Both the position numbers and the translations under genes were made by a program. From contig CANHCC010000004.1 in NCBI GenBank assembly GCA_947459115.1, positions 1 through 37,037 of the forward strand: a stretch of DNA of 37,037 nucleotides, written 5' to 3'. Source of the stretch: Bacteroidota bacterium. GTDB lineage: Bacteria > Bacteroidota > Bacteroidia > J057 > RFSG01. How positions within the stretch are numbered: position 1 is the stretch's first letter; the number at the start of each line of letters is the position of its first letter. This document shows positions 9,935 to 35,241 of the stretch, one piece after another. The notes under the pieces are model-generated. The model saw only the letters and a program-made list of their open reading frames with translations, made no database searches and was not told where the DNA came from.

Positions 9935-11842
9935 TTAGTGAGCGACAGTCATTTTACGGGTCAATTTCTGGTTGCCGGATTTTAGGCTGTAGAAATAGAT
10001 ACCGGAGGAATAAGTTGACAAATCTAGTTCAACAGAATTCAGACCACTGTTCAGGTTTTCTAAAGAACGAGCTTCAATAACTTGACCATGGATGTTGGTA
10101 ACTGTAAATTCAGCGTTGCCACCATTTACTAATTCAAACTCGATACGGGTTCTGTCAGTACCTGGGTTTGGATAGTTTTGGCCAAGGTTGTTCACATTGC
10201 CATTGATTTCTGCTTGGTTAGAAACACCGGAATAGCCGGAGGTTACCAAACGAAGGGCGATGTCTTCAGCAGAACGGTTACGGCTGGCTGCCCAGTTACC
10301 GAACAATACTTCGTAGGTGCGGTAAGAGAAGGGAGGCTGATTGTCAGTAACGATGTATGTAGAATCTCCACCTTGAACAAATGAAATGTAAACACCTTGT
10401 CCGGCAGTCATTTGGATTGGAGGACTGATAGGAAGAGGCACAACAACTAAAGATGAAGCAGGAAGATTTGCTGCTGCAATGGTAGCAGTACCAAGACTTG
10501 TTCCAGCTCCGGGAGCGCCATCATTCAAATACATGTTAATAGTGAAATCACTGGGAACTGTAGTCGTGATTACATAAAGTTCAAGAGAGTCTATTTGTGC
10601 AGGATAAGCAGGAGGCTCGAAATATACCCCTACGCCATTACCAGCGCCAAAGCCACTGATGCCGTGAAGCGCCTGGTCGAATGGGGGCTCAAAACGATCG
10701 TAAGATAATTTAACAAAAGACTGACCACAGTCTACAACATTAAATTCTGTTTCAGCGCGGTTATTGCCTGTAGTAGCATCACCGGTTAAAGCCAGTTGGC
10801 TTCTGAGGAAATAAGATCCAACAGCTGATGGTGTATAGCTTGAGGTTTGAGATACCTGAACTTCCTGACCTGGAGTAAGACCAGCGGTGTAGGAGGTATT
10901 TAATACGGAACCTGCTACCGGTGTAAGGCTTCCGGCTGGGAATACTGAAGTCGTGCACTGAACAGCAGCAGAGATTGGTTGGTTACCCACATTTTTAATG
11001 ATGGACATTGGGGTGTTCGGTACATTCAATGGTACGAAAATACCGCCATTCTCACCATTAAAGTTGGCTTCTGCCTGAACATCAGTTACCTGGAAAGTTA
11101 CAGCAGATGGGTAGTAAAATTTAACAGCTGTGCTGGTGGTTGGGTAAGTGTTATTTGAAACTTGTAAGCCGATTTGACCAGTGATGTTTTCAATTCCAAC
11201 AACCAATGGATTGGTTGCAGTGTTGTATCCATCATCCCAAATGCCATTTTGATCTTTGTATTGGAAAGTGATTGAAGAATCAGCTTTGCAAAGAATGACC
11301 TGGAAGGTATTGGTGCCAGCATAAGCAGAATTATAATAGAAAGGAACACTTTCGTAAGTGATAACCATACTATCAGCTGCAGTGTTGGTGTAGAGATAAA
11401 CACGACCTGGGTTACCTGGCGCTACCTGACCTACAGAATCAGCAAAATTCAAGTCACACATCATTGGTGCGAGGAAATGATTTTGATTGACCGGGAAGGC
11501 AGTAGGCATTGCAGGGAAGCCAATGGTAGTAGAGGCAATATTGGCAATCGGAGAGAATCCGATGTATCCATTAGAGCCAATCCATACTTGTGTAGCATCC
11601 AGCCAATAGTAAGGGAAGTTGAAGCCGATGCTGAAAGGACCGACAACATTGTCATCAGCTAGTCCGGATACGGTAACAACACCCGGGGCGTTACTGATTT
11701 CTACCCAGTTGTATGCCGGGCCATTCGGATCATTGCTGTTTCTCCAGACATATCCGTAGGTATCCGGACCGCCACTGGTTTGTGCAATTACCCGAACCCC
11801 AAGCATGAGTGCAAGTGTGAGGAAGGATAAAACTTTTTTCAT
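9935..11842 (-). CDS. Secreted protein with T9SS type A sorting domain
   Basis: The 635-aa protein has an N-terminal signal peptide (MKKVLSFLTLALMLGVRVIAQ) and a C-terminal sorting domain (about 555-635) that opens with NLGQNYPNPGTDRTRIEF and closes with SGIYFYSLKSGNQKLTRKM, the standard signal for export by the type IX secretion system and attachment to the cell surface or release. Between them the sequence is beta-rich with aromatic and Gly/Asn-rich stretches (for example IGFNFPYYW, SNGYIGF), suggestive of Ig-like or jelly-roll modules; no catalytic motif is visible. It is transcribed alone, with a clear -7 box about 40 nt upstream and a strong terminator. Its substrate or binding partner is unknown. 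Confidence 0.88.
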   Translation of the reverse strand: MKKVLSFLTLALMLGVRVIAQTSGGPDTYGYVWRNSNDPNGPAYNWVEISNAPGVVTVSGLADDNVVGPFSIGFNFPYYWLDATQVWIGSNGYIGFSPIANIASTTIGFPAMPTAFPVNQNHFLAPMMCDLNFADSVGQVAPGNPGRVYLYTNTAADSMVITYESVPFYYNSAYAGTNTFQVILCKADSSITFQYKDQNGIWDDGYNTATNPLVVGIENITGQIGLQVSNNTYPTTSTAVKFYYPSAVTFQVTDVQAEANFNGENGGIFVPLNVPNTPMSIIKNVGNQPISAAVQCTTSVFPAGSLTPVAGSVLNTSYTAGLTPGQEVQVSQTSSYTPSAVGSYFLRSQLALTGDATTGNNRAETEFNVVDCGQSFVKLSYDRFEPPFDQALHGISGFGAGNGVGVYFEPPAYPAQIDSLELYVITTTVPSDFTINMYLNDGAPGAGTSLGTATIAAANLPASSLVVVPLPISPPIQMTAGQGVYISFVQGGDSTYIVTDNQPPFSYRTYEVLFGNWAASRNRSAEDIALRLVTSGYSGVSNQAEINGNVNNLGQNYPNPGTDRTRIEFELVNGGNAEFTVTNIHGQVIEARSLENLNSGLNSVELDLSTYSSGIYFYSLKSGNQKLTRKMTVAH

Positions 11843-20259: not shown

Positions 20260-23200
20260 TTACTGCTTGATAAATTTCCCACGGTACACTTTTTCTTTAG
20301 TAGAATACCTTATCCAATAATATCCGGAGGTAAGGGTTTGTATGCCTAATTGCATTTTATTTCCATCTACAATCATGTGTTCCACTGCGATGCCTTTGCC
20401 ATTTACATCCGTTATTTCAAGTAACCCATCTTCTCTGACATCCGGAAGGGTAAAGAAAACAAAGTTTTCCGATGGATTAGGATAGAGTTCTAAGGTGTTC
20501 AAATGCTCCATATCCTCATTACCAGTTGTGCCAATGGTCACGGTTTGATAGGAAGTGTCGTTTTTGCAGGTATTGAAAGCAATCAGACGAACATTGTAAG
20601 TTCCGTAGGCAAGGTAAGTGTGAGAAGGATTCACCTGAGTGCTTGTATTCCCGTCTCCAAAGCTCCAATTGTAGGCAAATGCCTCTGAAGATTGATTCGT
20701 AAACTGAACCTGAACCCCATTGATGGATTTGCTGAAATTCGCTGTAGCAGGAAGGGTTGTCAGAATAGTAATGGTATCCGTCGAGGTACATCCCCCATTG
20801 GTAATATTCCAGGTGAGAACTACGCTGTCTCCCAAAACAATACCTGTGACCTGAGCGTGAGGTTGGTGGGGATTAACCAGGCTAACAGGGCCATACAAAA
20901 TATCCCAGTTTCCGGTTCCAACAAGTGGCGTATTCCCTGTCATTATCTCTATGGTATTACAGGTGGTATAATCTAGTCCAGCATCCGCAGGTGTTGGGGG
21001 GAGAGTTCTGATAACCGTTACTTCATCAAACGAGGAGTAGCAGGTTCCATTATTTATATACCATCTGAATACATTCACGCCATTTCCAATGCCTTGAACA
21101 GGGGAGTTATAGTCGGTAGGATTGGTAATATTGCCCGTACCTGAAATGAGAAGCCAGCTTCCCTGACCGATTGTTGGGATATTCCCGTCGAGTGTTGTGG
21201 AAGAGGTACAAATCTGGAAATCTACCCCTGCATCGGCAATCGTGGCGGGGGCAAGGTATTCAATAGTTACTGTGTCACTGGTCACACACACACCATAGAA
21301 AACAGTCCAGACCAATTCGTTTTGGCCTTCATCTAATCCGGTAACCATTGTATTGGCATTAGTTACACTGTCGAAGGTTGCATTTCCTGAACTAACAGAC
21401 CAGATACTGGTACCGGCAGGGGGAATAACCGCATTGAGCATGGCTGTATCCGTACATACAGACTGATCAGGGCCTGCATAAAATGGAGAAGCATATTGGC
21501 CAACCGATACAATTACCAAGTCAGAAACCTGGCCACATGCATTAGAAACCGTCCATCTGAGGGTGTTGTTGCCTACAGCCAGGCCATTAATGGTGGTGTT
21601 TGGGTCCGTAGGATTGACAAATGTTCCTGTTCCTGAAATCAGTGCCCATGTTCCTGTGCCGGAACCGGGGCTACTGCCAGATAACAAAGCGGATTGTAAG
21701 CAAATGTTTTGGTCAGAGCCTGCATTTACTCCGGTAGGGAGGGTTTGAATGGAGACATTAATTGTATCTCGGTCAATGCACCCACCATTGGTAACAGTCC
21801 AGATGTATTGATTAAGCCCATTTCCTATGCCTGATACAGCGCTGGTTGGTGAGGCAGAATTGGCAAAGTTTCCACTACCGGTTAAGACGCTCCATTGCCC
21901 TGTGCCATTCAGAGGAGTCGCAGCTCCAAGGTTTGCTGAGGTTGAACAGGTAAATACATCAGAACCAGCAATGGCACTAACAGAAGAAGAGTCTATTATG
22001 ATGGTTACATCGCTGGTGGAAGTACAATTTAAGTTGGTTGTGGTCCATCTGAAGACATTGGCTCCCACAGTCATGTTCAGAATGTCAGTGGTAGGACTTG
22101 TGGGGTTAACAATATTTCCATTTCCTGAAACCAAAGACCAAAGACCGGTACCTACGCTGGGGGTATTGGCAAACATCTGTGTGCTATCGTTGAAGCAAAT
22201 GGTTTGGTTAGATCCGGCAATGGATGGGGTAGGACCATCATTTTGAATGGTTACATCTGAAGTGGTTGAACCACAAGAATTCGAAACTGTCCAGCGGAAT
22301 GTATTAATTCCCGGACCTATGTTCGAAACGGCTGTGGTTGGATCATTGTTGTTTACAAAAGATCCTCCCCCGGTAACGGCAGTCCAGGTTCCGGTTCCAA
22401 TGGCAGGTGCATTTCCTGCAAGGATAGTGTTCGGACTACAGATGGTTTGATTGGCTCCTGCTACAGAGGCACTTGGAGGACCATAGGTGATTGTTACATC
22501 TGAAGTACTTGTGCAAGTACCATTCGTAGTGGTCCATCTGTAAACATTGATGCCAATTCCAATTCCTGTCGCTGCACTAGTTGCTATGGTTGGATTGGTG
22601 AAGGTACCTGTGCCAGAAACTACCGACCATGCGCCGGTTCCAATAACAGGTGCTGTTGCACTCATATTGGGTATGGAGGGCACACAGGTTGTTGCATTTA
22701 CACCTGCAATGGCCGGGGAGGGACTGTCATTAATGATTGTGACATTTGAGGTGGCTGAGCCACATGCCGTGGTGGTGACCGTCCAACGGTAAACATTGGT
22801 TCCCTGCGGAATGTTGGTGACGCCCGTGTTGAATGTACTGGTGCTGCCAAATGTCCCGGATCCGGTTACAACCGACCATGCACCCGTTCCTACGGTTGGA
22901 TTTGTGGCGGCCATTGTAGCTGAGCTTCCACAAATGGTTTGATTTGCACCCGCTACCGAAGTTGGGGCATCCGCTAGAGTAACGGTATATTCCTCCCATT
23001 CTCCGCCGTCAGTTGTATTGGTACTGCTGGGGTAATAGGTGGCTGCACATGACAAGACATTTGGCGTAATGCCGGCAACGGACAATACGCGCATCCTTAC
23101 CTGGCCGGTGACCGCTCCCAAGGGTACGGTAAAGTTTCCGGTACCGGGTAGGAGAGAAGGAGCAGTTGGGACTAGCACATTTTCGCCGGCATCATTAAAG

Positions 23201-24138
23201 TTGCCGTTGTTGTTATAGTCTATCCAGGCTGCTTTGCCCTGAGCTAATCCTAAAGAACTAATGCTGATGTTGTAAACACTGCCTTTGCATAGCGTGGTGG
23301 TTGCATTCGGGAAATATTGATAGGCTGTATTGTTATTGTAGGTAGAGTTATTGTTAAGGGTATTTAAGGTTACATTGTTGATGTAGTCCAGGGTAAAGTC
23401 GCAGGTTTCGTTGAAAGGGACTGCACATTCAACCGTGGTTTGAATAGTGTTAGAGTATGCTACGCAGCCTCCATTCACCAGGCGAGCTCTGGCAAACATG
23501 GTAGAGTTGTTTTGAGAAGTAACAAAGAAATTGACACTGGTTGCGCTTGAACCACTGGAGAGCCAAGGGAGCGTATTGAAATAGTATTCCCAATCAATTG
23601 TGCCTGTATGACCCGTAAGTCTGAACACAACGGAGTCGTTCGACACAATGCTCGATCTGGAGGTGGTAGCTGTTCCTCCAACTGCCGGTATAGAACATGG
23701 CACTTGTCTTACCGCGATGTGCGAGCCATTTGTCGAATTGCCTGCACAATTCAATTGGCTGACTAATACTCTGAAAACACCGGTGGATGAGGCTGCCCAG
23801 CTAAATTTTGAAGCTGTTCCGCATCCAGGTGCATCATTGTTGAAAGTCCCAATATAGACACCCGCATTGCTGTTCATCGAGATTTCAGTGTCATAGGTAT
23901 TGGCCCCTCCATCTGTGGAGCAAAACGAAAACTCATAAACATTACCGGCTACTGCATTGAATTGCAGGTATTCTCCCCCCCAAATGTCAAAATAGGTTGT
24001 CCAGGTGGTTGAGATGTTAATCGGCGTAGTATTATAGGCAGATCCACCCTGGCATTGTGCATTTGCATTTTGCCATGGAGTTATCCAAATAAATACCAGG
24101 AGCAAAACGGGTAATAAAGTATTAGTAAAGCTTCTCAT
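20260..24138 (-). CDS. Large secreted repeat protein with GEVED, PKD and T9SS sorting domains
   Basis: The 1292-aa protein starts with a signal peptide (LLPVLLLVFIWITPWQNANAQ). Residues about 30-150 form a beta-rich domain (FSFCSTDGGANTYDTEI); about 280-385 form a GEVED-type domain (WIDYNNNGNFNDAGENV, VRMRVLS). Nine repeats of about 82 aa fill about 393-1131, each with AG.(N/D)QTIC, (V/I)GTG.W.(V/L)(V/I)(T/S)G.G and a FRWT..N..C ending. A PKD domain follows (about 1133-1205; YNWSFGDGNTSTQVNPSHTY), then a T9SS sorting domain (LELYPNPSENFVFF to the end). It is probably exported to the cell surface, perhaps as an adhesin or extended stalk; no enzyme motif is visible. Long ORFs on the opposite strand (for example 21827-22246) are shadows caused by the repeats. 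Confidence 0.9.
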   Translation of the reverse strand: MRSFTNTLLPVLLLVFIWITPWQNANAQCQGGSAYNTTPINISTTWTTYFDIWGGEYLQFNAVAGNVYEFSFCSTDGGANTYDTEISMNSNAGVYIGTFNNDAPGCGTASKFSWAASSTGVFRVLVSQLNCAGNSTNGSHIAVRQVPCSIPAVGGTATTSRSSIVSNDSVVFRLTGHTGTIDWEYYFNTLPWLSSGSSATSVNFFVTSQNNSTMFARARLVNGGCVAYSNTIQTTVECAVPFNETCDFTLDYINNVTLNTLNNNSTYNNNTAYQYFPNATTTLCKGSVYNISISSLGLAQGKAAWIDYNNNGNFNDAGENVLVPTAPSLLPGTGNFTVPLGAVTGQVRMRVLSVAGITPNVLSCAATYYPSSTNTTDGGEWEEYTVTLADAPTSVAGANQTICGSSATMAATNPTVGTGAWSVVTGSGTFGSTSTFNTGVTNIPQGTNVYRWTVTTTACGSATSNVTIINDSPSPAIAGVNATTCVPSIPNMSATAPVIGTGAWSVVSGTGTFTNPTIATSAATGIGIGINVYRWTTTNGTCTSTSDVTITYGPPSASVAGANQTICSPNTILAGNAPAIGTGTWTAVTGGGSFVNNNDPTTAVSNIGPGINTFRWTVSNSCGSTTSDVTIQNDGPTPSIAGSNQTICFNDSTQMFANTPSVGTGLWSLVSGNGNIVNPTSPTTDILNMTVGANVFRWTTTNLNCTSTSDVTIIIDSSSVSAIAGSDVFTCSTSANLGAATPLNGTGQWSVLTGSGNFANSASPTSAVSGIGNGLNQYIWTVTNGGCIDRDTINVSIQTLPTGVNAGSDQNICLQSALLSGSSPGSGTGTWALISGTGTFVNPTDPNTTINGLAVGNNTLRWTVSNACGQVSDLVIVSVGQYASPFYAGPDQSVCTDTAMLNAVIPPAGTSIWSVSSGNATFDSVTNANTMVTGLDEGQNELVWTVFYGVCVTSDTVTIEYLAPATIADAGVDFQICTSSTTLDGNIPTIGQGSWLLISGTGNITNPTDYNSPVQGIGNGVNVFRWYINNGTCYSSFDEVTVIRTLPPTPADAGLDYTTCNTIEIMTGNTPLVGTGNWDILYGPVSLVNPHQPHAQVTGIVLGDSVVLTWNITNGGCTSTDTITILTTLPATANFSKSINGVQVQFTNQSSEAFAYNWSFGDGNTSTQVNPSHTYLAYGTYNVRLIAFNTCKNDTSYQTVTIGTTGNEDMEHLNTLELYPNPSENFVFFTLPDVREDGLLEITDVNGKGIAVEHMIVDGNKMQLGIQTLTSGYYWIRYSTKEKVYRGKFIKQ

Positions 24139-25876: not shown

Positions 25877-25906
25877 AAAAGGCCGGTTCATCCGGCCTTT
25901 TCTTTG
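25877..25906 (+). terminator. Terminator after nuoB
   Basis: AAAAGGCCGG (25877-25886), loop TTCAT, CCGGCCTTTT (25892-25901), then CTTTG. The 10-bp stem with a U-tract is a convincing intrinsic terminator and closes the nuoA-nuoB unit. Confidence 0.9.
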
Positions 25907-25939: not shown

Positions 25940-26830
25940 ATGGCTTTTCAAATATTTTCGGATTTGGATTCCTCTATCCCCCTGACGCGTCCGGATTGTC
26001 TGTTTGATGACTATACTTTTTTTAAAAGGCATGCAGGCCATTTCCCTCATTCCATTTATGTTTTTAATACTGAAATTGAAGAAGGAGCCGGGTTGTTAAA
26101 CATCAATAATGCCTTTTATCATCCCGGCAGGGGGAGTTTTGGATTATTGCCCTTGAATGGAAATTCCTTTAATTCTCCATTGTTATTGCTTCAACAGCCC
26201 GTATATACCACTTCGCCCCCCGAACTTTGGCTGAATCACTTTCAGTCGGATTATATCGAACGATTAACTGCTAATGGGTTTCTTCTGTTTATGGAGGAAC
26301 CATCCTTTTTGATTGAAGTTAAAGAAGAAGTACTAAGCCTCAGAATGGATAGAGGAAATGTGAAAAGACTTAACAAAGGCATACGATTGGGGGTTGAAAC
26401 TTCCTTGGATGTTACCTGGGAACCCCTATATCAATTGCTTTCGGAGAATCGTGCACAAAAAGGTGTCAAATTGGCTATGTCGGAAGCAGAAGTAAACTTT
26501 ATGATGCAGCAGTTTCCCACTGATTGCTTCTGGTTTTCCACCCGAAAAGATGGGGAGGTTATTGCCTCTGCATTTGTGCTTCAATCCTTACCCGGATGCT
26601 GGCAGGTAGTTTATTGGGGACATCGCCCGGGTACTGAAGACTTAAGTCCTGTTACCTCTTTGGCAAATTCCATTTATGAAGCGGCCCGTCATCGGGATAT
26701 TCTGTTCCTGGATTTGGGTACGGCTAGTCTGGAGGGGAAACCCAATCAAGGTCTGATTCGATATAAACAAAATCTGGGGGCTGTTCCTTCCCGAAAAGCT
26801 ACCTTTGTCAGACATGCTTCTCAAACATGA
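25940..26830 (+). CDS. GNAT/FemAB-like N-acyltransferase, first gene of a six-gene cassette
   Basis: The sequence resembles the GNAT-fold acyltransferases of the FemAB/Acetyltransf_6 type, which add acyl or aminoacyl groups to amino sugars or peptides: an N-terminal half with FLLFMEEPSFLIEV, a linker rich in basic residues (MDRGNVKRLNKGI), then a C-terminal GNAT-like core with CFWFSTRKDGEVIASAFVL, VVYWGHRPGTED and FLDLGTASLEGKPNQGLIRYKQNLG. I prefer the Met at 25940 (296 aa) because the track's start at 25904 lies directly on the tail of the nuoB terminator. A weak -7-like AATTTTTG (25921-25928) precedes it. Its stop overlaps the next start by ATGA. The exact substrate is not known; context suggests an amino sugar. 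Confidence 0.72.
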   Translation: MAFQIFSDLDSSIPLTRPDCLFDDYTFFKRHAGHFPHSIYVFNTEIEEGAGLLNINNAFYHPGRGSFGLLPLNGNSFNSPLLLLQQPVYTTSPPELWLNHFQSDYIERLTANGFLLFMEEPSFLIEVKEEVLSLRMDRGNVKRLNKGIRLGVETSLDVTWEPLYQLLSENRAQKGVKLAMSEAEVNFMMQQFPTDCFWFSTRKDGEVIASAFVLQSLPGCWQVVYWGHRPGTEDLSPVTSLANSIYEAARHRDILFLDLGTASLEGKPNQGLIRYKQNLGAVPSRKATFVRHASQT

Positions 26831-27564
26831 GTAGAGATTTAAATCAATACAGTAAGGCCTATGCCGCCCAGCCTTTTGAACCGGTAATGGTCAAATATCG
26901 GCGAATAAGAACTCTGGAAATGCTGGGTGATGTTTCTGCTTGTCGCATTTTGGAAATTGGCTGTGGTTCGGAACCTGCGTCCGCCTGGATTCCGGTTTAT
27001 CAATCCCTTACGATTCTGGAACCGGCAGAGGCGTTTTTTCAGTCCGCCCTTGTTCAAACCCAAGGATTCGAAAAGGTGCATGTCATTCATTCGAGTGCTG
27101 AAAATATTCAACATTTGCCTGAAGCGCCTTTTGATGTGATTTTGCTGAATAGTTTATTACATGAATTGCAACATCCTGACATTCTGTTAAATGCACTTCA
27201 TCCCTGGTGTCATGCAGGAACACGAATACTCATAAATGTGCCCAATGCGTGGTCTTTCCACCGCCAATTGGCGGTGAAAATGGACTTGATACCATTCCCG
27301 GAATTTCTTTCCCAGGCCAACCTGACCTTTCAACAAGCCACTGTCTTTAATACGAGTAGCCTGAAAGCGTTGTGTGAAGGGTGTCATTATGAAGTTCAGA
27401 ATGCTCTTACCTCATTTATCAAACCTTTCACCCATGCTCAAATGCAGGAAATGTTGGACAAGGGTCTCCTCTCAGATAATTTATTGGAGGGGTTATATCA
27501 AATGAGTTCTGAAATGCCAGATGCGGGAGCAGAAATATTTTTTCTTTTAACTCCTGCAAAATGA
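26827..27564 (+). CDS. Class I SAM-dependent methyltransferase (cassette gene 2)
   Basis: The 245-aa protein has a Rossmann methyltransferase core: motif I ILEIGCGSEPASAW (about 40-53), an acidic residue ending strand 2 (TILEPAE), FDVILLNSLLHEL (motif IV region) and RILINVPNAWSFHRQLAVKM after it. It overlaps its neighbours on both sides by 4 nt (ATGA), so it is tightly coupled in the cassette. It is a distant relative of cassette gene 4, with which it shares the unusual (I/F)HR(R/Q)LAVKM(G/D)L segment. The acceptor (sugar hydroxyl, amine or carboxyl) cannot be inferred. Confidence 0.85.
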   Translation: MSRDLNQYSKAYAAQPFEPVMVKYRRIRTLEMLGDVSACRILEIGCGSEPASAWIPVYQSLTILEPAEAFFQSALVQTQGFEKVHVIHSSAENIQHLPEAPFDVILLNSLLHELQHPDILLNALHPWCHAGTRILINVPNAWSFHRQLAVKMDLIPFPEFLSQANLTFQQATVFNTSSLKALCEGCHYEVQNALTSFIKPFTHAQMQEMLDKGLLSDNLLEGLYQMSSEMPDAGAEIFFLLTPAK

Positions 27565-28922
27565 AATACAGGGTGGTTGTCATGGGATCTCAGCCGGCAG
27601 CTTTGGTTTCTGCCTCTGAACTTCAGGCAGCAGGTGAAGATTTTATCTGGTTGAAAGGTCCCGCACCCGGTGGGGGGATTTTTAGAGGAATTCATTTTGC
27701 CGGTCGAGATTGGGATGCCGGGATGAATCTATTGGAATTTACCGCCCTTAAAGACTCAACCTCCGGGGAGATAACTTCTTATTCCCCTAAAGTGCGGTAT
27801 GATTATGTTAGGTTTCTACCCCAAATCCGAGCGTGGCTGGAAAAGCGTATTCAAATCAAACAGGTGCCAACCCCGGAAATGTACTTTAGGGGTCAAGCGC
27901 TGCCAGACTTTTTGATTTCAAACCATTCGGCGTTTTTTCAAAAATTGCCTGAAGAAATTCGGTCTGAAATTTTTGCATTTGTAAGTCGGGTGTCTTTGTC
28001 TAATCCCCTTCATGCCAGGTTTAAGCATGAAAATCCCACGAGTTTTGAGTCTGTTTCCTATCGAGAAGTTGCATATGCCAATCATGGTGTTTGGCTTCAG
28101 CAAAATTTGATTGAACCTTGGCTGGAAAAAATTACTTCCGGCGATGGGCTTCAGATTCCTGCCCTGTTTCATCGTCAGGCCTGGGCACCCTTGTTTTATC
28201 CGGAAACCCTTCAGCGTTTTTTACAAGATCCTGCCTATCAGTTGCCTCCCACAATTTTTGAATATCCTCAGGGCGAGGGATTTGGTGCCTGGATGCAGCG
28301 GGAAGAAGCGGATTTGAAAGATAAACTCGATACCTCGAATTGGAAAAGTATATCAAGGACGCCTTCCGGATGGACAATCCACACAGAACATAATTCTTAT
28401 GAATGTCAGCACCTGGCTTATACCGGTGATTTGAGTCAGTTTCTGGAATTGTCAGGCCGCAAGCAGGGCAACACCTTACGGAGAGGCAAATTGGGTTTTA
28501 TTGGTATTTATCTGAATCAGAAAGATTTGCTTAAAGAAACTTCTGTCCTGAATGTTCCGGAAAAAGATTTTGCCCTGTTTCGTCTGATGGATCAAACCTT
28601 ATGTGCCGGCTTAGATTCGGAATCTCATTTTATCCTTGGGGAGTTTGCTCAAAGTGTTCCCGAAGAATCAGAAGTTCGCAAGATTATGGAAGAATCCGGC
28701 TGGATTCGGGAAGGAAGTGAAATTAAAATAGCGGGAAGTCTGGGTCCGGTTTCTGCTTTTGTCATGCCGGAGTTTGAAAACCTCAGGATTTTCCGGAATT
28801 TGCAGGAGGAAATGGAATCCCATTTTCCAAATTTGATCCGGATGGGGAGTGCTGGAGAAATGACTTCAGTTTCGCTTAATGATCAGATTGTACAGGGTTT
28901 ACAATTGCCCCATAGCATATGA
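27561..28922 (+). CDS. UDP-galactopyranose mutase-like / amine-oxidase-fold flavoprotein (cassette gene 3)
   Basis: The 453-aa protein begins with a divergent dinucleotide-binding motif (VVVMGSQPAALVSASELQAAG) followed by a GG-rich turn (GPAPGGGIFRGI), as in FAD enzymes of the UDP-galactopyranose mutase, protoporphyrinogen oxidase and amine oxidase group. The C-terminus (LIRMGSAGEMTSVSLNDQIVQGLQL) matches the FAD-contacting end of that fold, where a Gly-rich motif precedes a helix. The middle is unrecognised. The first Gly of the usual GxGxxG is retained but the third is replaced by Ala, so FAD binding should be tested. It overlaps both neighbours by ATGA. A role in oxidation or ring contraction of a sugar is possible from context only. 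Confidence 0.7.
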   Translation: MKYRVVVMGSQPAALVSASELQAAGEDFIWLKGPAPGGGIFRGIHFAGRDWDAGMNLLEFTALKDSTSGEITSYSPKVRYDYVRFLPQIRAWLEKRIQIKQVPTPEMYFRGQALPDFLISNHSAFFQKLPEEIRSEIFAFVSRVSLSNPLHARFKHENPTSFESVSYREVAYANHGVWLQQNLIEPWLEKITSGDGLQIPALFHRQAWAPLFYPETLQRFLQDPAYQLPPTIFEYPQGEGFGAWMQREEADLKDKLDTSNWKSISRTPSGWTIHTEHNSYECQHLAYTGDLSQFLELSGRKQGNTLRRGKLGFIGIYLNQKDLLKETSVLNVPEKDFALFRLMDQTLCAGLDSESHFILGEFAQSVPEESEVRKIMEESGWIREGSEIKIAGSLGPVSAFVMPEFENLRIFRNLQEEMESHFPNLIRMGSAGEMTSVSLNDQIVQGLQLPHSI

Positions 28923-29647
28923 GTGTAACACGGGAAGAACTGGATAAAACAGCTCAGGAATATCATCTTCAGGATGTGTTGGAGGACAAACACATTGAAG
29001 GTGCTTGTCAGGAATATTCTTTCACTTGGGTTTTTGATCGTCTTAAACCTCATCAGCATGTGCTTGAAATGGGCTACGGGGATGGCTTGTTTAGCGCCGC
29101 CTTACATAACAGGAATATTTCTTTTTCTATTGTGGAAGGAGCACTTTCATTGGTGCAGGAGGTGCAGAAGCGATATCCGGAGGTGAAAATTTATCATGAG
29201 TTGTTTGAAGCCTTTACTCCGGCCGAGCAGTATGATGTTATTCTTGCCACGCATGTATTAGAACATGTGGACGAACCTGTTGCTTTGCTGAAAAGCATGA
29301 AAGCCTGGTTGAAACCGGGTGGAAAAATTATAGTTATTGTTCCCAATAAGGATTCTATTCACAGAAGACTTGCGGTTAAAATGGGACTTCAACCCAGGTT
29401 GGATACCCTTGGACAAAGAGATTTATTGGTGGGACATCAAAGAGTGTATGGACTGGATACATTAAGACAAGACCTGGAAGAAGCCGGTTATTGTGTGAAT
29501 CATCAGACGGGTTTTTTTCTAAAAGTCTTACCCAATTCCATGATGAAGGGCTATTCTCCGGAACTGATTAAGGCGCTTAACGAGATTTCTGAAGACTTGG
29601 CCCCGGATCTGCTTGCCAATATTGGGGTGGAAGCCAGCATTGCCTAA
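28919..29647 (+). CDS. Class I SAM-dependent methyltransferase (cassette gene 4)
   Basis: The 242-aa protein is a Methyltransf_11/23-type enzyme: motif I VLEMGYGDGLFSAAL (about 43-57), the acidic end of strand 2 FSIVEGA, YDVILATHVLEHVDEPVALL (about 103-122) and KPGGKIIVIVPNKDS. The segment IHRRLAVKMGLQP after motif VI matches cassette gene 2, so the pair probably arose by duplication. It overlaps the flavoprotein stop by ATGA and precedes the glycosyltransferase by 3 nt. Methyltransferases with this layout often act on sugars in surface-polysaccharide clusters, but the substrate is unknown. Confidence 0.88.
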   Translation: MSVTREELDKTAQEYHLQDVLEDKHIEGACQEYSFTWVFDRLKPHQHVLEMGYGDGLFSAALHNRNISFSIVEGALSLVQEVQKRYPEVKIYHELFEAFTPAEQYDVILATHVLEHVDEPVALLKSMKAWLKPGGKIIVIVPNKDSIHRRLAVKMGLQPRLDTLGQRDLLVGHQRVYGLDTLRQDLEEAGYCVNHQTGFFLKVLPNSMMKGYSPELIKALNEISEDLAPDLLANIGVEASIA

Positions 29648-29650
29648 CGC

Positions 29651-30616
29651 ATGAATACACTGCCTCTCATATCTGTCATTATTCCCTGCTACCGGAATGA
29701 AAAGAATATTCCGGTGACCGGCAGAAAGTTAATTGAAAATGAATCCCTGCTGCAAGGAAAAGCGCGGTTTGAATATATATTGATTGACGATGGGTCTCCG
29801 GATAATACCTGGGAAGCTATTTTGAGTTTTCGAGACCAATATCCTCACAAAGTAAAGGCCATTCGGTTTACCCGAAATTTTAGTTCTACTAATGCCACTT
29901 ATGCAGGAATGGAAGAGGCCGAAGGAGATTGTACGATCATAATCTCCGCTGACCTTCAGGATCCGATTGAGTTATTTCCTAAAATGTTTGACTATTGGCA
30001 AAAGGGCATGCCATTGGTCGTGGCGAACAGAAACAGCCGGGAGGAACCACTTTGGCAAAGATGGGTCTCCGGTCTTACCCATTCTCTTATTCGAAAATTT
30101 GCGTTAAAAAATCTTCCGCATGGAGGCTTTGATTTTGTCCTCTTTGATCGTAAAGTACGAGAGCATGTAGTACAGATTCAGGACAAAAATTCGTTTTTGC
30201 CCTATCTTTTAATTTGGCTTGGCTATGATTTTGTCTCAATTCCTTATGTGAGGAAGAAGCGGGAAATTGGCAAAAGCTCCTACACGCTTGGCAAGAAAAT
30301 TAAATCCTTAGTGGATTCTTTTGTGGCATTTTCTTTCTTTCCGGTAAGGTTGATTTCTTTGTTAGGTCTATCCCTCGGGCTAATAGCACTGATTTATGCC
30401 GGTGTTGTCCTCGTTGGAAAATACCTTGGCTTAATTCCCATTGATGGTTGGAGCAGTATGATGGTAATTCTGCTGCTTGTTTCTTCCTTTCAAATGATAG
30501 GAATAGGGATTTTGGGTGAATACATATGGCGAACATTGGACGCTTCCAGAAATCGCCCGAATTTTATTGTGGCCGAAAAACATTTGCCTACCCCTGAATC
30601 CTTAGATAAAACATGA
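29651..30616 (+). CDS. GT2 family glycosyltransferase, polyprenyl-phosphate type (cassette gene 5)
   Basis: The 321-aa protein is a GT-A fold family 2 enzyme of the DPM1/GtrB/ArnC kind, which puts a sugar on undecaprenyl phosphate at the inner membrane. The N-terminal catalytic domain has SVIIPCYRNEKNI, the Asp-rich ILIDDGSPDNTW, the metal-binding IISADLQDPIEL and a SFLPYLLIWLGY segment. Two C-terminal transmembrane helices follow (about 230-255 and 270-295), then the typical IGILGEYIWRTLDASRNRPNFIV tail motif. It overlaps the DegT aminotransferase by ATGA. Confidence 0.9.
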   Translation: MNTLPLISVIIPCYRNEKNIPVTGRKLIENESLLQGKARFEYILIDDGSPDNTWEAILSFRDQYPHKVKAIRFTRNFSSTNATYAGMEEAEGDCTIIISADLQDPIELFPKMFDYWQKGMPLVVANRNSREEPLWQRWVSGLTHSLIRKFALKNLPHGGFDFVLFDRKVREHVVQIQDKNSFLPYLLIWLGYDFVSIPYVRKKREIGKSSYTLGKKIKSLVDSFVAFSFFPVRLISLLGLSLGLIALIYAGVVLVGKYLGLIPIDGWSSMMVILLLVSSFQMIGIGILGEYIWRTLDASRNRPNFIVAEKHLPTPESLDKT

Positions 30617-31728
30617 TTCCTTATCTGGATTTAAAATCCTTACATCTTGAGATGAAGGCGGATTTGGAAAAGGCTATTTCCCGGGTCCTTACCTCTGGTT
30701 GGTATATTCAGGGAGAGGCTTGTGAAGCCTTTGAAAAAGAATGGGCCGCTTATTGTGGCGTAGCTTATTCGGTGGGGTGTGGGAATGGACTTGACGCACT
30801 CCGTCTGGTTTTGGAGGCTTGGAAAATTCAAGGGAGAGTGGAAGTCGGGGATCATGTGTTAGTCCCCTCCAATACTTATATTGCTACCTGGCTGGCGGTC
30901 ACGCAAGCCGGTCTTGTGCCAGTTCCGGTTGAACCCGATGAAGTCTCCTGTCTGGTGACAGCAGAACAATTCCAGAAAGCGCTAACGCCCCGAACAAAAA
31001 TCTTACTTCCGGTTTATCTTTATGGAAGAATATCCGATATGGAGGATATAATGGAATTGGCCCGTCAAAAGCAGTTGTTGGTATTAAGTGATGCTGCTCA
31101 GGCGCACGGCGCTTCCCGGAAGAATAAAAAAGCAGGTGCCTGGGCGCATGCCGAAGCCTTCAGCTTTTATCCCGGTAAAAATTTGGGGGCTCTGGGAGAT
31201 GGAGGGGCGGTGTGTTCGGATGATCCTGATTTAATTCGCCTCGTAAAGATTCTGGGGAATTATGGGTCCGAAAAAAAATATCACAACCTTTACCAAGGAT
31301 TGAATTCTCGCCTGGATGAACTGCAGGCGGCCATACTTAGAGTAAAATTGCCATTTCTGGACGCCTGGAATCAAGAGAGAAGTCGCCTGGCATCCTTGTA
31401 CTTAACAGGAATTTCTAATCCCTTAATCACTTTGCCTTTGAAGGCCGAAGCCGGGGTTTCAGTTTGGCATATTTTTCAGGTGCAATCGCTTTATCGGGAT
31501 GAATTGCAGGCTTATTTGCAAGGACGAGGTATCTCAACGGTGATTCATTATCCTATTCCTCCTTTTCTTCAGCCGGCCTATCAACAAGAATTTTCTGGAA
31601 AGAAATTTCCTCTGAGTGAAAAAATTCATGCCCAAACCCTCAGTCTGCCTCTATATCCCGGCCTTTCGGATTCTGATGTTGCAGAAATTATTCACGCCTT
31701 AAATGATTTTATACCAAAGGAAAAGTGA
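30613..31728 (+). CDS. DegT/DnrJ/EryC1/StrS family sugar aminotransferase (cassette gene 6)
   Basis: This PLP enzyme transfers an amino group to a keto sugar nucleotide. The 371-aa sequence has GCGNGLDALRLVLEAW, VPSNTYIATWLAVTQAGL, DAAQAHGAS (Asp160 for the PLP pyridine nitrogen) and FSFYPGKNLGALGDGGA with Lys189 as the Schiff-base lysine. The GNGLDALRL and NTYIATWLAV style resembles FdtB/QdtB, the dTDP-3-amino-3,6-dideoxyhexose aminotransferases, better than the 4-aminotransferases, which would pair well with an N-acyltransferase. The upstream keto-sugar genes (thymidylyltransferase, dehydratase, isomerase) are not in the window. It ends the cassette; mqnE follows with its own promoter. Confidence 0.9.
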   Translation: MIPYLDLKSLHLEMKADLEKAISRVLTSGWYIQGEACEAFEKEWAAYCGVAYSVGCGNGLDALRLVLEAWKIQGRVEVGDHVLVPSNTYIATWLAVTQAGLVPVPVEPDEVSCLVTAEQFQKALTPRTKILLPVYLYGRISDMEDIMELARQKQLLVLSDAAQAHGASRKNKKAGAWAHAEAFSFYPGKNLGALGDGGAVCSDDPDLIRLVKILGNYGSEKKYHNLYQGLNSRLDELQAAILRVKLPFLDAWNQERSRLASLYLTGISNPLITLPLKAEAGVSVWHIFQVQSLYRDELQAYLQGRGISTVIHYPIPPFLQPAYQQEFSGKKFPLSEKIHAQTLSLPLYPGLSDSDVAEIIHALNDFIPKEK

Positions 31729-31747
31729 GTTCAGGTGAACTTTCAAT

Positions 31748-31775
31748 TTTGACTGAAAGTTATTGTTTAAATTTG
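31748..31775 (+). promoter_or_regulatory. mqnE promoter, -7 element 4 nt before the ATG
   Basis: TTTG (31748-31751), 16 nt, TAAATTTG (31768-31775), then CACT and the ATG at 31780. The -7 box is perfect. A transcription start at the A of the ATG is predicted. Confidence 0.6.
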
Positions 31776-31779
31776 CACT

Positions 31780-32952
31780 ATGTTAGAATCAATCGGTTTG
31801 TCTGCTCGTTATCGTGGCAATCTTGACGCCAATCTGATCCGGATTGCGGACAAGGTTTACAATGAAGAAAGAATTACCAATGAGGACGCGTTGGCTTTGT
31901 TCCAGTCCAATAATCTGGGGTTTCTGGGTGAATTGGCGCACGCCATTCGGGTGCGTAAGCATGGGTTAAATACCTATTTCAACCGAAATTTTCACATAGA
32001 ACCAACGAATATCTGTATTTATACCTGTTCCTTCTGCGCTTTCGCTCGTCGTCCGGATGAAGAGGGGGGCTGGGAATATACCCTTGAGCAAATTGAAGAT
32101 CAGGTCAGGCAGTACAATGGCAAACCCATTACCGAGGTACATATCGTCGGTGGCGTTCACCCCAAAAGAGGGGTGGATTATTATGGAGAAATGATTCAGC
32201 GTATCAAGGCCATTCGACCTGACATTCATGTAAAAGGCTTTACAGCAGTGGAGTTGAAAGTTATGTTTGCCAGAAGTCGCATGAGCATTGAAGAAGGCTT
32301 GCTGGCTCTAAAAGCATACGGTCTGGATTCATTACCGGGTGGAGGCGCTGAGATTTTTCACCCCGACATTCGCTCCCAGATTTGTGATACGAAAGCCTCA
32401 TCCGATAATTGGCTTCAAATTCACGAAGCAGCCCACACCCTTGGGATTCCGTCCAATTGCACCATGTTATATGGTCATATTGAACAGCATGAGCATCGGG
32501 TCCATCACATGGAGCAGTTAAGAAATCTTCAGGACAGAACAGGTGGTTTTAATACCTTTATTCCCTTAAAATTCCGGAATGAAAACAGTGATCTTTCTCA
32601 TCTGAAAGAGGTCAATATGATTGAAGATTTAAAGACCTATGCAGTCTCCCGAATTTATTTGGACAACATCGCTCACCTGAAAGCCTACTGGCCTATGATT
32701 GGTCGGGATACCACCCAGATTTCCTTGTCCTTTGGGGTGGATGATATTGATGGAACCATTGATGATTCTACAAAAATTTATTCCATGGCAGGGTCTGAAG
32801 AAAAAAATCCGGCCATGACTACCCCGGAATTAATTCGCCTGGTGAAGGACGCCGGCTTCCGGCCTATTGAAAGGGATACCCTTTACAACATTATCAATGA
32901 TTTCGGAGACAAAGACTTCACCGAGACAGTAGATATTCCCGTACTTAGCTAA
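31780..32952 (+). CDS. mqnE: Aminofutalosine synthase (radical SAM)
   Basis: MqnE joins 3-enolpyruvyl-benzoate (from MqnA) to SAM to form aminodeoxyfutalosine in the futalosine route to menaquinone. The 390-aa protein carries the radical SAM motif CIYTCSFC (Cys79, Cys83, Cys86), then LPGGGAEIFHPDIRSQIC, TMLYGHIEQHEHRVHHMEQL, GGFNTFIPLKF, and the C-terminal DDIDGTIDDSTK and ERDTLYNII segments. GGGAEIFHP, the LDNIAHLKAYWPMIG segment and the ERDTLY end match MqnE better than the related MqnC. A histidine-phosphatase gene starts 4 bp after its stop. Confidence 0.93.
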   Translation: MLESIGLSARYRGNLDANLIRIADKVYNEERITNEDALALFQSNNLGFLGELAHAIRVRKHGLNTYFNRNFHIEPTNICIYTCSFCAFARRPDEEGGWEYTLEQIEDQVRQYNGKPITEVHIVGGVHPKRGVDYYGEMIQRIKAIRPDIHVKGFTAVELKVMFARSRMSIEEGLLALKAYGLDSLPGGGAEIFHPDIRSQICDTKASSDNWLQIHEAAHTLGIPSNCTMLYGHIEQHEHRVHHMEQLRNLQDRTGGFNTFIPLKFRNENSDLSHLKEVNMIEDLKTYAVSRIYLDNIAHLKAYWPMIGRDTTQISLSFGVDDIDGTIDDSTKIYSMAGSEEKNPAMTTPELIRLVKDAGFRPIERDTLYNIINDFGDKDFTETVDIPVLS

Positions 32953-34446: not shown

Positions 34447-35241
34447 ATGAATCGAATCACGCCATACTTGTTCTTGGTCCTGGGTGTTATTAGTTTGGTT
34501 TCTCTTTCTTGCAAAAAGGAAAATCCGGGATTGAATCTCAAAGAGGATAAAACCAAGCCTTCGATTAATGCGGTTTCTCCTGTGAGTTCTAATGCGACCT
34601 ATTCTAACGGGCAACAAATTCAATTTAAGGCAACACTGACCGATAATCGCATGGTAGAGTCTTATCGCATCAAAATTGAGTTTGATCAAGAACGGAATGA
34701 ATCTCAGGTACATGCGACGCCTTGGTATTTTGTTCAGAGTTATAAAACCGATGGCAGAAGCAAAGAGGTTACCCAAATTATTCCTGTGCCTCAAAATGCA
34801 CTGGCCGGCCCATACCGAATGACCATCTTTTGTACCGATACCAAAAAAAATGAGGCAGATTCCGTTGTTGTGGACTTAAATATTTACAATACTAATGATC
34901 TTCTACCTCCCACCTTTACAGACAACAATACCGGAGTAGATGCCGATCGTACACTTAGTATCAGCACTTTAAATAATAATGCCTTTACCATTTTAGATAC
35001 GATTCAGGAAAATGATCGTCTTACGGTCATTCGGTCCGATGGTTTTAACAACAGAACTCTGGCTAAACTGCCTTTATTGCCTACTGAAGTGAATTTAATG
35101 GTACAAGGTTCTACCAATTTGTACTACTACGAGCAAACGCTGTTTTTCCCGGATACAGGTAAATATACTTTTCGCTTGATAGCAAGGGATTTGATGAATA
35201 ACACAGGGCTAAAGGTGGTTAAATTTAATATTGTTCCCTGA
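34447..35241 (+). CDS. DUF4625-like lipoprotein
   Basis: The 264-aa protein has a lipoprotein signal peptide (YLFLVLGVISLVSLSC, Cys22) followed by KKENPG. From about residue 35 it resembles the DUF4625 group of Bacteroidota lipoproteins: DKTKPSINAVSPVSSN, a GQQIQFKATLTDNRMVESYRI style Ig-like domain with ANALAG..RMTIFCTD type strands, and a second beta-rich part ending FRLIARDLMNNTGLKVVKFNI. It should sit in the inner leaflet of the outer membrane or on the surface. The TPR protein gene begins 33 bp after its stop, so the two probably form one operon. Function is unknown. Confidence 0.8.
   Translation: MNRITPYLFLVLGVISLVSLSCKKENPGLNLKEDKTKPSINAVSPVSSNATYSNGQQIQFKATLTDNRMVESYRIKIEFDQERNESQVHATPWYFVQSYKTDGRSKEVTQIIPVPQNALAGPYRMTIFCTDTKKNEADSVVVDLNIYNTNDLLPPTFTDNNTGVDADRTLSISTLNNNAFTILDTIQENDRLTVIRSDGFNNRTLAKLPLLPTEVNLMVQGSTNLYYYEQTLFFPDTGKYTFRLIARDLMNNTGLKVVKFNIVP

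Follow-up and report, generated by a model that had tools for sequence, protein, structure and literature searches.

Six co-directional genes on the + strand, here called g1 to g6, form a tightly packed cassette (25940-31728) in the genome of a Bacteroidota bacterium, within a stretch of 37,037 nucleotides (contig CANHCC010000004.1, assembly GCA_947459115.1) that is referred to as the window. We consider it probable, at roughly 0.6, that this cassette is an operon for a pathway resembling the Arn pathway, and that its product is a 3-amino-3,6-dideoxyhexose that is N-acylated, methylated and linked to a lipid. An earlier note, made from the letters of the window alone, had predicted an N-acylated, possibly methylated amino sugar that is moved to a polyprenyl phosphate, and the gene families together with several distant loci point to a product of this predicted kind, probably with methylation. 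The general plan of such a pathway is already known; the exact gene set is rare and is a variant of known pathways.

The proposed route would start from dTDP-4-keto-6-deoxyglucose, provided by RmlB, whose gene lies elsewhere in the genome, and by a presumed RmlA. A ketoisomerase of the FdtA type, likewise encoded elsewhere, would shift the keto group to C-3, where g6 would introduce the amino group by transamination. This new amine would then be acylated by g1 with an acyl-CoA or, in the manner of FemAB, an aminoacyl-tRNA as donor, g2 and g4 would methylate positions of the sugar or of the acyl group, and g3 would contribute one further step, probably a redox reaction tied to the acyl or methyl modification. 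On the inner side of the membrane, polyprenyl phosphate would receive the sugar from g5, and an unlinked flippase and an unlinked GT-C glycosyltransferase would deliver it to a surface acceptor. The families of g2, g4, g5 and g6, the conservation of the set, the co-occurrence of its members elsewhere, RmlB and one FdtA-family gene are seen in the sequence; we infer the substrates, the order of the steps, the acceptor and everything that concerns g3.

The aminotransferase g6 is a DegT_DnrJ_EryC1 protein (PF01041, 319 bits) that retains the pyridoxal phosphate lysine in the motif SFYPGKN. When compared with solved structures, its best match is QdtB (3frk; 364 bits, E 6.8e-108), followed by the transaminase 2oga (351 bits), and weaker matches are WbpE (220 bits), ArnB (133 bits) and 2fn6 (85 bits). 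Of these, QdtB and 2oga (DesV) act at C-3, and 2fn6 (PseC) acts at C-4. The ArnB profile NF008658 gave 157.7 bits and did not reach its cut-off of 631. By sequence similarity, g6 can be placed in the QdtB/FdtB group of C-3 aminotransferases, and all three of its relatives found in the outside loci described below are situated in loci bearing FdtA (L017, 47 % identity; L018, 47 %; L082, 41 %). The glycosyltransferase family 2 (GT2) protein g5 matches Glycos_transf_2 (PF00535, 87.8 bits) and the GtrB family phrog_841 (E 5.9e-72), and it is similar over its full length to PgfS (167 bits) and ArnC (133.8 bits), both scores remaining under the equivalog cut-offs (529 for ArnC). With its ADLQDP motif, its segments resembling transmembrane helices and a C-terminal hydrophobic region (residues 220-292), g5 is proposed to be a membrane-linked GT-A/GT2 enzyme that forms a C55-P-sugar.

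The modifying enzymes are assigned with differing scores. For g1, the acetyltransferase family Acetyltransf_6 (PF13480) is matched with 17.1 bits, under the cut-off of 22, and the FemAB-type profile TIGR03019 is matched weakly (25 bits). The g1 relative on a Roseomonas plasmid (L021) is above the PF13480 cut-off with 32.4 bits, that of Acetoanaerobium (L082) matches PF13480 and the FemAB family PF02388, both under cut-off, and that of L017 has no family match, yet shares 35 % identity with g1 across 157 amino acids (aa). Both g2 (34.3 bits, motif I LEIGCG) and g4 (75.9 bits) are matched by Methyltransf_23 (PF13489), and they share 31 % identity (E 2e-19). Relatives of g4 were found in the amino-sugar loci L017, L018, L028 and L029, and among the loci with g4-type methyltransferases are amino-sugar loci on plasmids that contain DegT, WbqC and GNAT genes, in one case together with FdtA.

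The genes of the cassette are joined by 4-nt ATGA overlaps at g1/g2, g2/g3, g3/g4 and g5/g6 and by a 3-nt gap at g4/g5, so that the overlapping layout described earlier agrees with the coordinates of the open reading frames. Among the 22 genomes of the order that were searched, including the genome of the window itself (G000), a genome from another family (G007) has the identical gene order on its contig C19, rsmG-nuoA-nuoB-[six genes]-mqnE. The six genes are thus kept together with the same order and borders in a relative, as had been asked of the prediction, and since genes, order and neighbours recur in another family, the layout is not due to chance. Between the two genomes, the proteins share 48 % (g1), 55 % (g2), 50 % (g3), 70 % (g4), 82 % (g5) and 58 % (g6) identity, and the flanking NuoB and MqnE share 99 % and 88 %. 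The nonsynonymous divergence dN of the cassette genes is 0.15-0.55, with the synonymous divergence dS being saturated and not computable, a pattern consistent with purifying selection on genes that change more quickly than those beside them. As the GC content of the cassette matches that of the host in both genomes, a recent horizontal gain is not favoured.

The exact gene set is rare. A profile search for g3 in the 22 genomes of the order gave matches in G000 and G007 only; in wider samples, the two genomes with g3 among 100 relatives were again G000 and G007, and 396 phylum members drawn evenly yielded a single one, G000 itself. In another 16 genomes of the order that have mqnE, the sequence upstream of this gene, of which at most about 1.5 kb was examined, contained no cassette genes. 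Contig scans based on alignments of g3 and of g4 retrieved no relative, the chosen 8-residue peptides probably being too weakly conserved for this, a scan of viral contigs with g3 gave one spurious match to an unrelated protein of 3017 aa, and g3 was not found in phage records.

Parts of the cassette recur in four distant loci. The locus L017 (G539:C33:1-11325) encodes FdtA, an FdtB-like protein, a GT2, a g1-like protein, a g3-like protein (30 %) and a g4-like methyltransferase (43 %), and it continues with two DegT-like proteins, a methyltransferase and a flagellin gene at the end of the contig. This contig was assigned to a Bacteroidota bin, but its GC content of 54.6 % is far above the 38 % of a locus from a different genome of that genus; for this reason, and because of the flagellin gene, the contig probably comes from a flagellated bacterium and was binned wrongly. 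In another Bacteroidota genome, L018 (G587:C1) carries genes for a methyltransferase, a GT2 (52 % to g5), an FdtB and GtrA consecutively, so that the relatives of g4, g5 and g6 stand in the same order as in the cassette, and two FdtA genes lie nearby. The locus L082 of Acetoanaerobium noterae encodes a hexapeptide acyltransferase, a g5-like GT2 (42 %, 306 aa), a g1-like FemAB/GNAT protein, a GT-C protein of the PMT_2 family, FdtB and FdtA; as read from its gene families, it is the proposed pathway with front and back ends joined on. Its record, NZ_CP154629.1, is a circular molecule of 2.6 Mb that is filed as a plasmid yet is chromosome-like. Neither L082 nor L018 contains g3.

A different part of the cassette is found on plasmid p1318-2 of Roseomonas marmotae (L021), where a GNAT protein, a methyltransferase and a hypothetical protein correspond to relatives of g1, a methyltransferase and g3 in the order of the window. 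These three genes abut or overlap one another downstream of flgG, flgA and flgH. When relatives of g1 and g3 were searched independently in 72,556 plasmid records, both searches retrieved this locus, with one further record for g1 and none for g3. Directly upstream of the three genes (L021 6174-8141), a Roseomonas protein of 655 aa without a Pfam or NCBIfam family is a candidate glycosyltransferase. Taken together, these four loci suggest that the cassette is, by its gene content, a mosaic of two recurring sub-modules. One would consist of FdtB, a GtrB-like GT2 and acyl or methyl modification, and appears elsewhere in the company of FdtA, GtrA or a GT-C; the other would consist of g1, a methyltransferase and g3, and adjoins flagellar genes elsewhere. 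The view that the combination does not belong to a described pathway therefore stands for the exact set of six genes, of which no description was found in the literature (open-licence papers), but not for its sub-combinations, which recur in recognisable amino-sugar loci such as flagellin-linked islands and the FdtA/FdtB/GT-C cluster.

Of the known systems, the Arn pathway (ArnB-ArnA-ArnC-ArnD-ArnT), which modifies lipid A with L-Ara4N (4-amino-4-deoxy-L-arabinose), shares with the route proposed here an aminotransferase, an N-modification of the amine, an ArnC-like GT2 acting on undecaprenyl phosphate and a later transfer by a GT-C. It differs in that g6 is of the C-3 (QdtB) type instead of ArnB, that acylation of the FemAB/GNAT type replaces ArnA, and that the cassette adds two methyltransferases and g3; ArnA formyltransferase, ArnD and ArnT have no match among the six genes. 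The routes to dTDP-Fuc3NAc (FdtA/FdtB/FdtC) and dTDP-Qui3NAc (QdtA/QdtB/QdtC), the activated N-acetylated 3-amino-3,6-dideoxy sugars, resemble the cassette in that g6 is nearest to QdtB and has its outside relatives in FdtA loci. Unlike them, the cassette has an unlinked FdtA (G000) or none (G007), lacks a hexapeptide FdtC/QdtC, and is proposed to send its product to polyprenyl phosphate. This last feature is shared with multi-component transmembrane glycosylation, for which the logic of a GT2/GT-A enzyme, a GtrA flippase and a GT-C has been reviewed (PMC8035078): g5 appears to be the membrane-linked GT-A kind that makes a C55-P-sugar, whereas flippase and GT-C are missing from the cassette and dedicated sugar genes stand beside the glycosyltransferase.

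Flagellin islands offer another comparison. The modified viosamine on the flagellin of Pseudomonas syringae is described as the work of one small gene set that aminates, acylates and methylates a deoxysugar (PMC3927599), and acylated Fuc3N is known on the flagellin of Clostridioides difficile (PMC5207245). Such islands, for instance the viosamine island of P. syringae (PMC3927599) and the FdtA/FdtB islands of Geobacillus (PMC5109656), resemble the cassette in combining a DegT aminotransferase, an N-acyltransferase and a methyltransferase for a modified amino deoxysugar, and relatives of g1, g3 and the methyltransferase adjoin flagellar genes. In contrast to them, the cassette has no flagellin gene and its glycosyltransferase is of the polyprenyl-phosphate type, and no counterpart of g3 was found in the parts of these two papers that were considered.

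The enzymes that the pathway would need in addition are only partly found. According to the earlier note, the usual nucleotide-sugar front end is lacking; this is true of the locus, but not of the genome, as RmlB (dTDP-glucose 4,6-dehydratase) is over its cut-off in G000 (contig C111, full score) and in G007, and G000 has a single gene of the FdtA family (C2:7976-8380) with the HAH motif, unlinked to the cassette. The RmlB gene on C111 has no sugar cluster around it from which the pathway could be recognised. Several observations weigh against the proposed operon. G007 has no gene of the FdtA family, so that the ketoisomerase step is not universal among genomes with the cassette, and the unlinked FdtA of G000 may serve another DegT aminotransferase of that genome. 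In Geobacillus, the absence of FdtA has been read as a sign that FdtB acts on another sugar (PMC5109656). The cassette encodes neither a GT-C nor a flippase, and none of the PMT_2 proteins of G000 and G007 resembles the GT-C of Acetoanaerobium. Furthermore, g1 scores under its Pfam cut-off, and the role of g3 is left unexplained by the pathway. FdtB has also been reported to yield some Fuc3N without FdtA (PMC5207245); because FdtB works in part without FdtA, but the absence of FdtA in Geobacillus was taken to indicate another substrate, the exact sugar is not fixed. At the back end, each of G000 and G007 has one GtrA and several PMT_2 proteins, none of them linked to the cassette. Only the PMT_2 pair L064/L065 is similar over its full length between the two genomes (38 %), and as this pair is also unlinked and no PMT_2 protein is Acetoanaerobium-like, a specific GT-C partner for the cassette was rejected.

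The most unusual component is g3, which has no family match in Pfam, NCBIfam or PHROGs. It had been called a flavoprotein like UGM (UDP-galactopyranose mutase), an assignment that is not supported: no UGM/GLF family is matched even at E 10, and the first glycine motif (GxGxxG) is degenerate in the g3 family (GSQPAA, GNSIST, GGSVAA), with no acidic residue after the second strand. What is seen is a weak N-terminal similarity to amine oxidases that use flavin adenine dinucleotide (FAD). With a family profile built from four homologues, FAD amine oxidases are matched in the N-terminal part in every case, at E 0.13 or higher, and single members match NAD_binding_8 and carotenoid desaturases with E values of 0.05-0.18; this similarity is marginal and confined to the first ~55 residues, and when the profile was compared directly with that of one FAD oxidase, the result gave no support. 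An AlphaFold model of g3 from one sequence had a mean pLDDT (predicted local distance difference test) of 35 and was not usable. From these marginal similarities, g3 is possibly a divergent FAD oxidoreductase. No characterised member of its family was found.

The reading of g3 as a C-3 oxidase would make the cassette self-sufficient without FdtA, with g3 oxidizing a nucleotide sugar to a 3-keto sugar that g6 transaminates, comparable to GnnA/GnnB or WlbA/WbpE. The pairing of a dehydrogenase with a DegT aminotransferase is a known logic and speaks for this reading, as do the lack of FdtA in G007 and the weak FAD amine-oxidase-type signal. We nevertheless regard it as rather unlikely, given that L017 contains FdtA and FdtB as well as its g3 relative, which leaves no need for a further 3-oxidase, and that the Roseomonas relative has no neighbouring aminotransferase; the lack of g3 in L082 and L018 is predicted by this reading as well and does not discriminate. 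For the same two reasons, an action of g3 on the acyl or methyl part is more likely, and homologues of g3 adjoin relatives of g1 and of the methyltransferases in both L017 and L021. More tentatively, g3 could found a new enzyme family that is coupled to FemAB/GNAT acyltransferases and S-adenosylmethionine (SAM) methyltransferases across Bacteroidota and Pseudomonadota and carries out an undescribed reaction with an acylated amino sugar, such as an N-acyl or N-methyl oxidation. If so, the cassette would provide non-flagellated Bacteroidota with a sugar that decorates the surface in a new way. In three separate settings g3 is linked to an acyltransferase and a methyltransferase, here within a compact conserved set, and its function can therefore be tested in a defined context.

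Two further explanations concern the cassette as a whole. It could make a nucleotide-activated amino sugar that is attached directly, in the cytoplasm, to a surface protein or a secreted one, in the style of flagellin islands and with g5 as an ordinary sugar transferase. The flagellin and flagellar genes next to relatives of g1, g3 and the methyltransferase in L017 and Roseomonas agree with this, and amination, acylation and methylation of the VioA/VioB/VioM type are known for flagellin glycans (PMC3927599). We think that this is improbable, as g5 matches GtrB/ArnC/PgfS-type enzymes over its full length and has the C-terminal membrane region, as g5 relatives are paired with GtrA or a PMT-type GT-C, and as housekeeping genes flank the cassette, with no flagellin or flagellar gene among its neighbours in the window. 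Still less likely, the six genes belong as one block to a larger system for surface polysaccharides, with its remaining parts elsewhere in the genome. All the families are typical of polysaccharide loci, and G000 has other glycan clusters with DegT aminotransferases; against this stand the identical borders and six-gene content in two families, the housekeeping genes that flank the set and the agreement of GC with the host in both genomes. That this is not a standard O-antigen locus, as had been noted before, is borne out by its single GT2 and by the lack of Wzx and Wzy family matches among the six genes. The Arn-like operon for a lipid-linked sugar is preferred over these explanations, and it suggests that Bacteroidota apply to a lipid-linked sugar the modification enzymes that adjoin flagellar genes in other bacteria. 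Such a surface modification would be one that has not been described so far.

Table 1. The six cassette genes and the two elements at their borders (positions in the window)
Feature	Positions	Strand	Description
g1	25940-26830	+	296 aa, FemAB/GNAT-like (PF13480-type) acyltransferase
g2	26827-27564	+	245 aa, class I SAM methyltransferase, g4 paralogue
g3	27561-28922	+	453 aa, uncharacterised, possible divergent FAD oxidoreductase
g4	28919-29647	+	242 aa, class I SAM methyltransferase
g5	29651-30616	+	GtrB/ArnC/PgfS-like GT2
g6	30613-31728	+	DegT-family sugar aminotransferase, QdtB/FdtB (C-3) type
Intrinsic terminator 3' of nuoB	25877-25901	+	10-pair stem AAAAGGCCGG/CCGGCCTTTT, T-rich tail; upstream border of the cassette
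Inverted repeat	31738-31761	.	AACTTTCA-N8-TGAAAGTT, perfect; between g6 and mqnE, downstream border

The start of g1 was taken as the ATG listed in Table 1, the mechanical open reading frame beginning earlier with a TTG at 25904. The position of the cassette between a nuoB terminator and mqnE, as first described, holds on both sides. The hairpin behind nuoB has the longest stem in the scan, in which hairpins of this class were not above chance (10 found vs 7.9 expected), and nuoB of G007 is likewise followed by a hairpin and a T run. On the other side, mqnE begins at 31780 after a gap of 51 nt and exceeds the cut-off of the MqnE profile (466.7 bits, cut-off 434.55). The inverted repeat in this gap occurs at the same position in G007 and is absent from all other loci compared; it has one exact match in the window, where 0.02 are expected when up to 2 mismatches are allowed. 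It may serve as an operator for mqnE or mark where the cassette transcript ends, and may thus belong to mqnE instead of the cassette. Matches in a scan for sigma-70 promoters were not above chance.

The neighbours of the cassette in the window are rsmG, nuoA, nuoB, mqnE, a phosphatase gene and a VitK2_biosynth (MqnA-type) gene. G007 has a second MqnE-like gene (C7:219041-220132, 71 % identity) that is distant from its cassette. Downstream of the futalosine genes, the window encodes a DUF4625 protein (34447-35241), and two large proteins with Por secretion tails are encoded on the - strand at 9935-11842 and 20260-24138.

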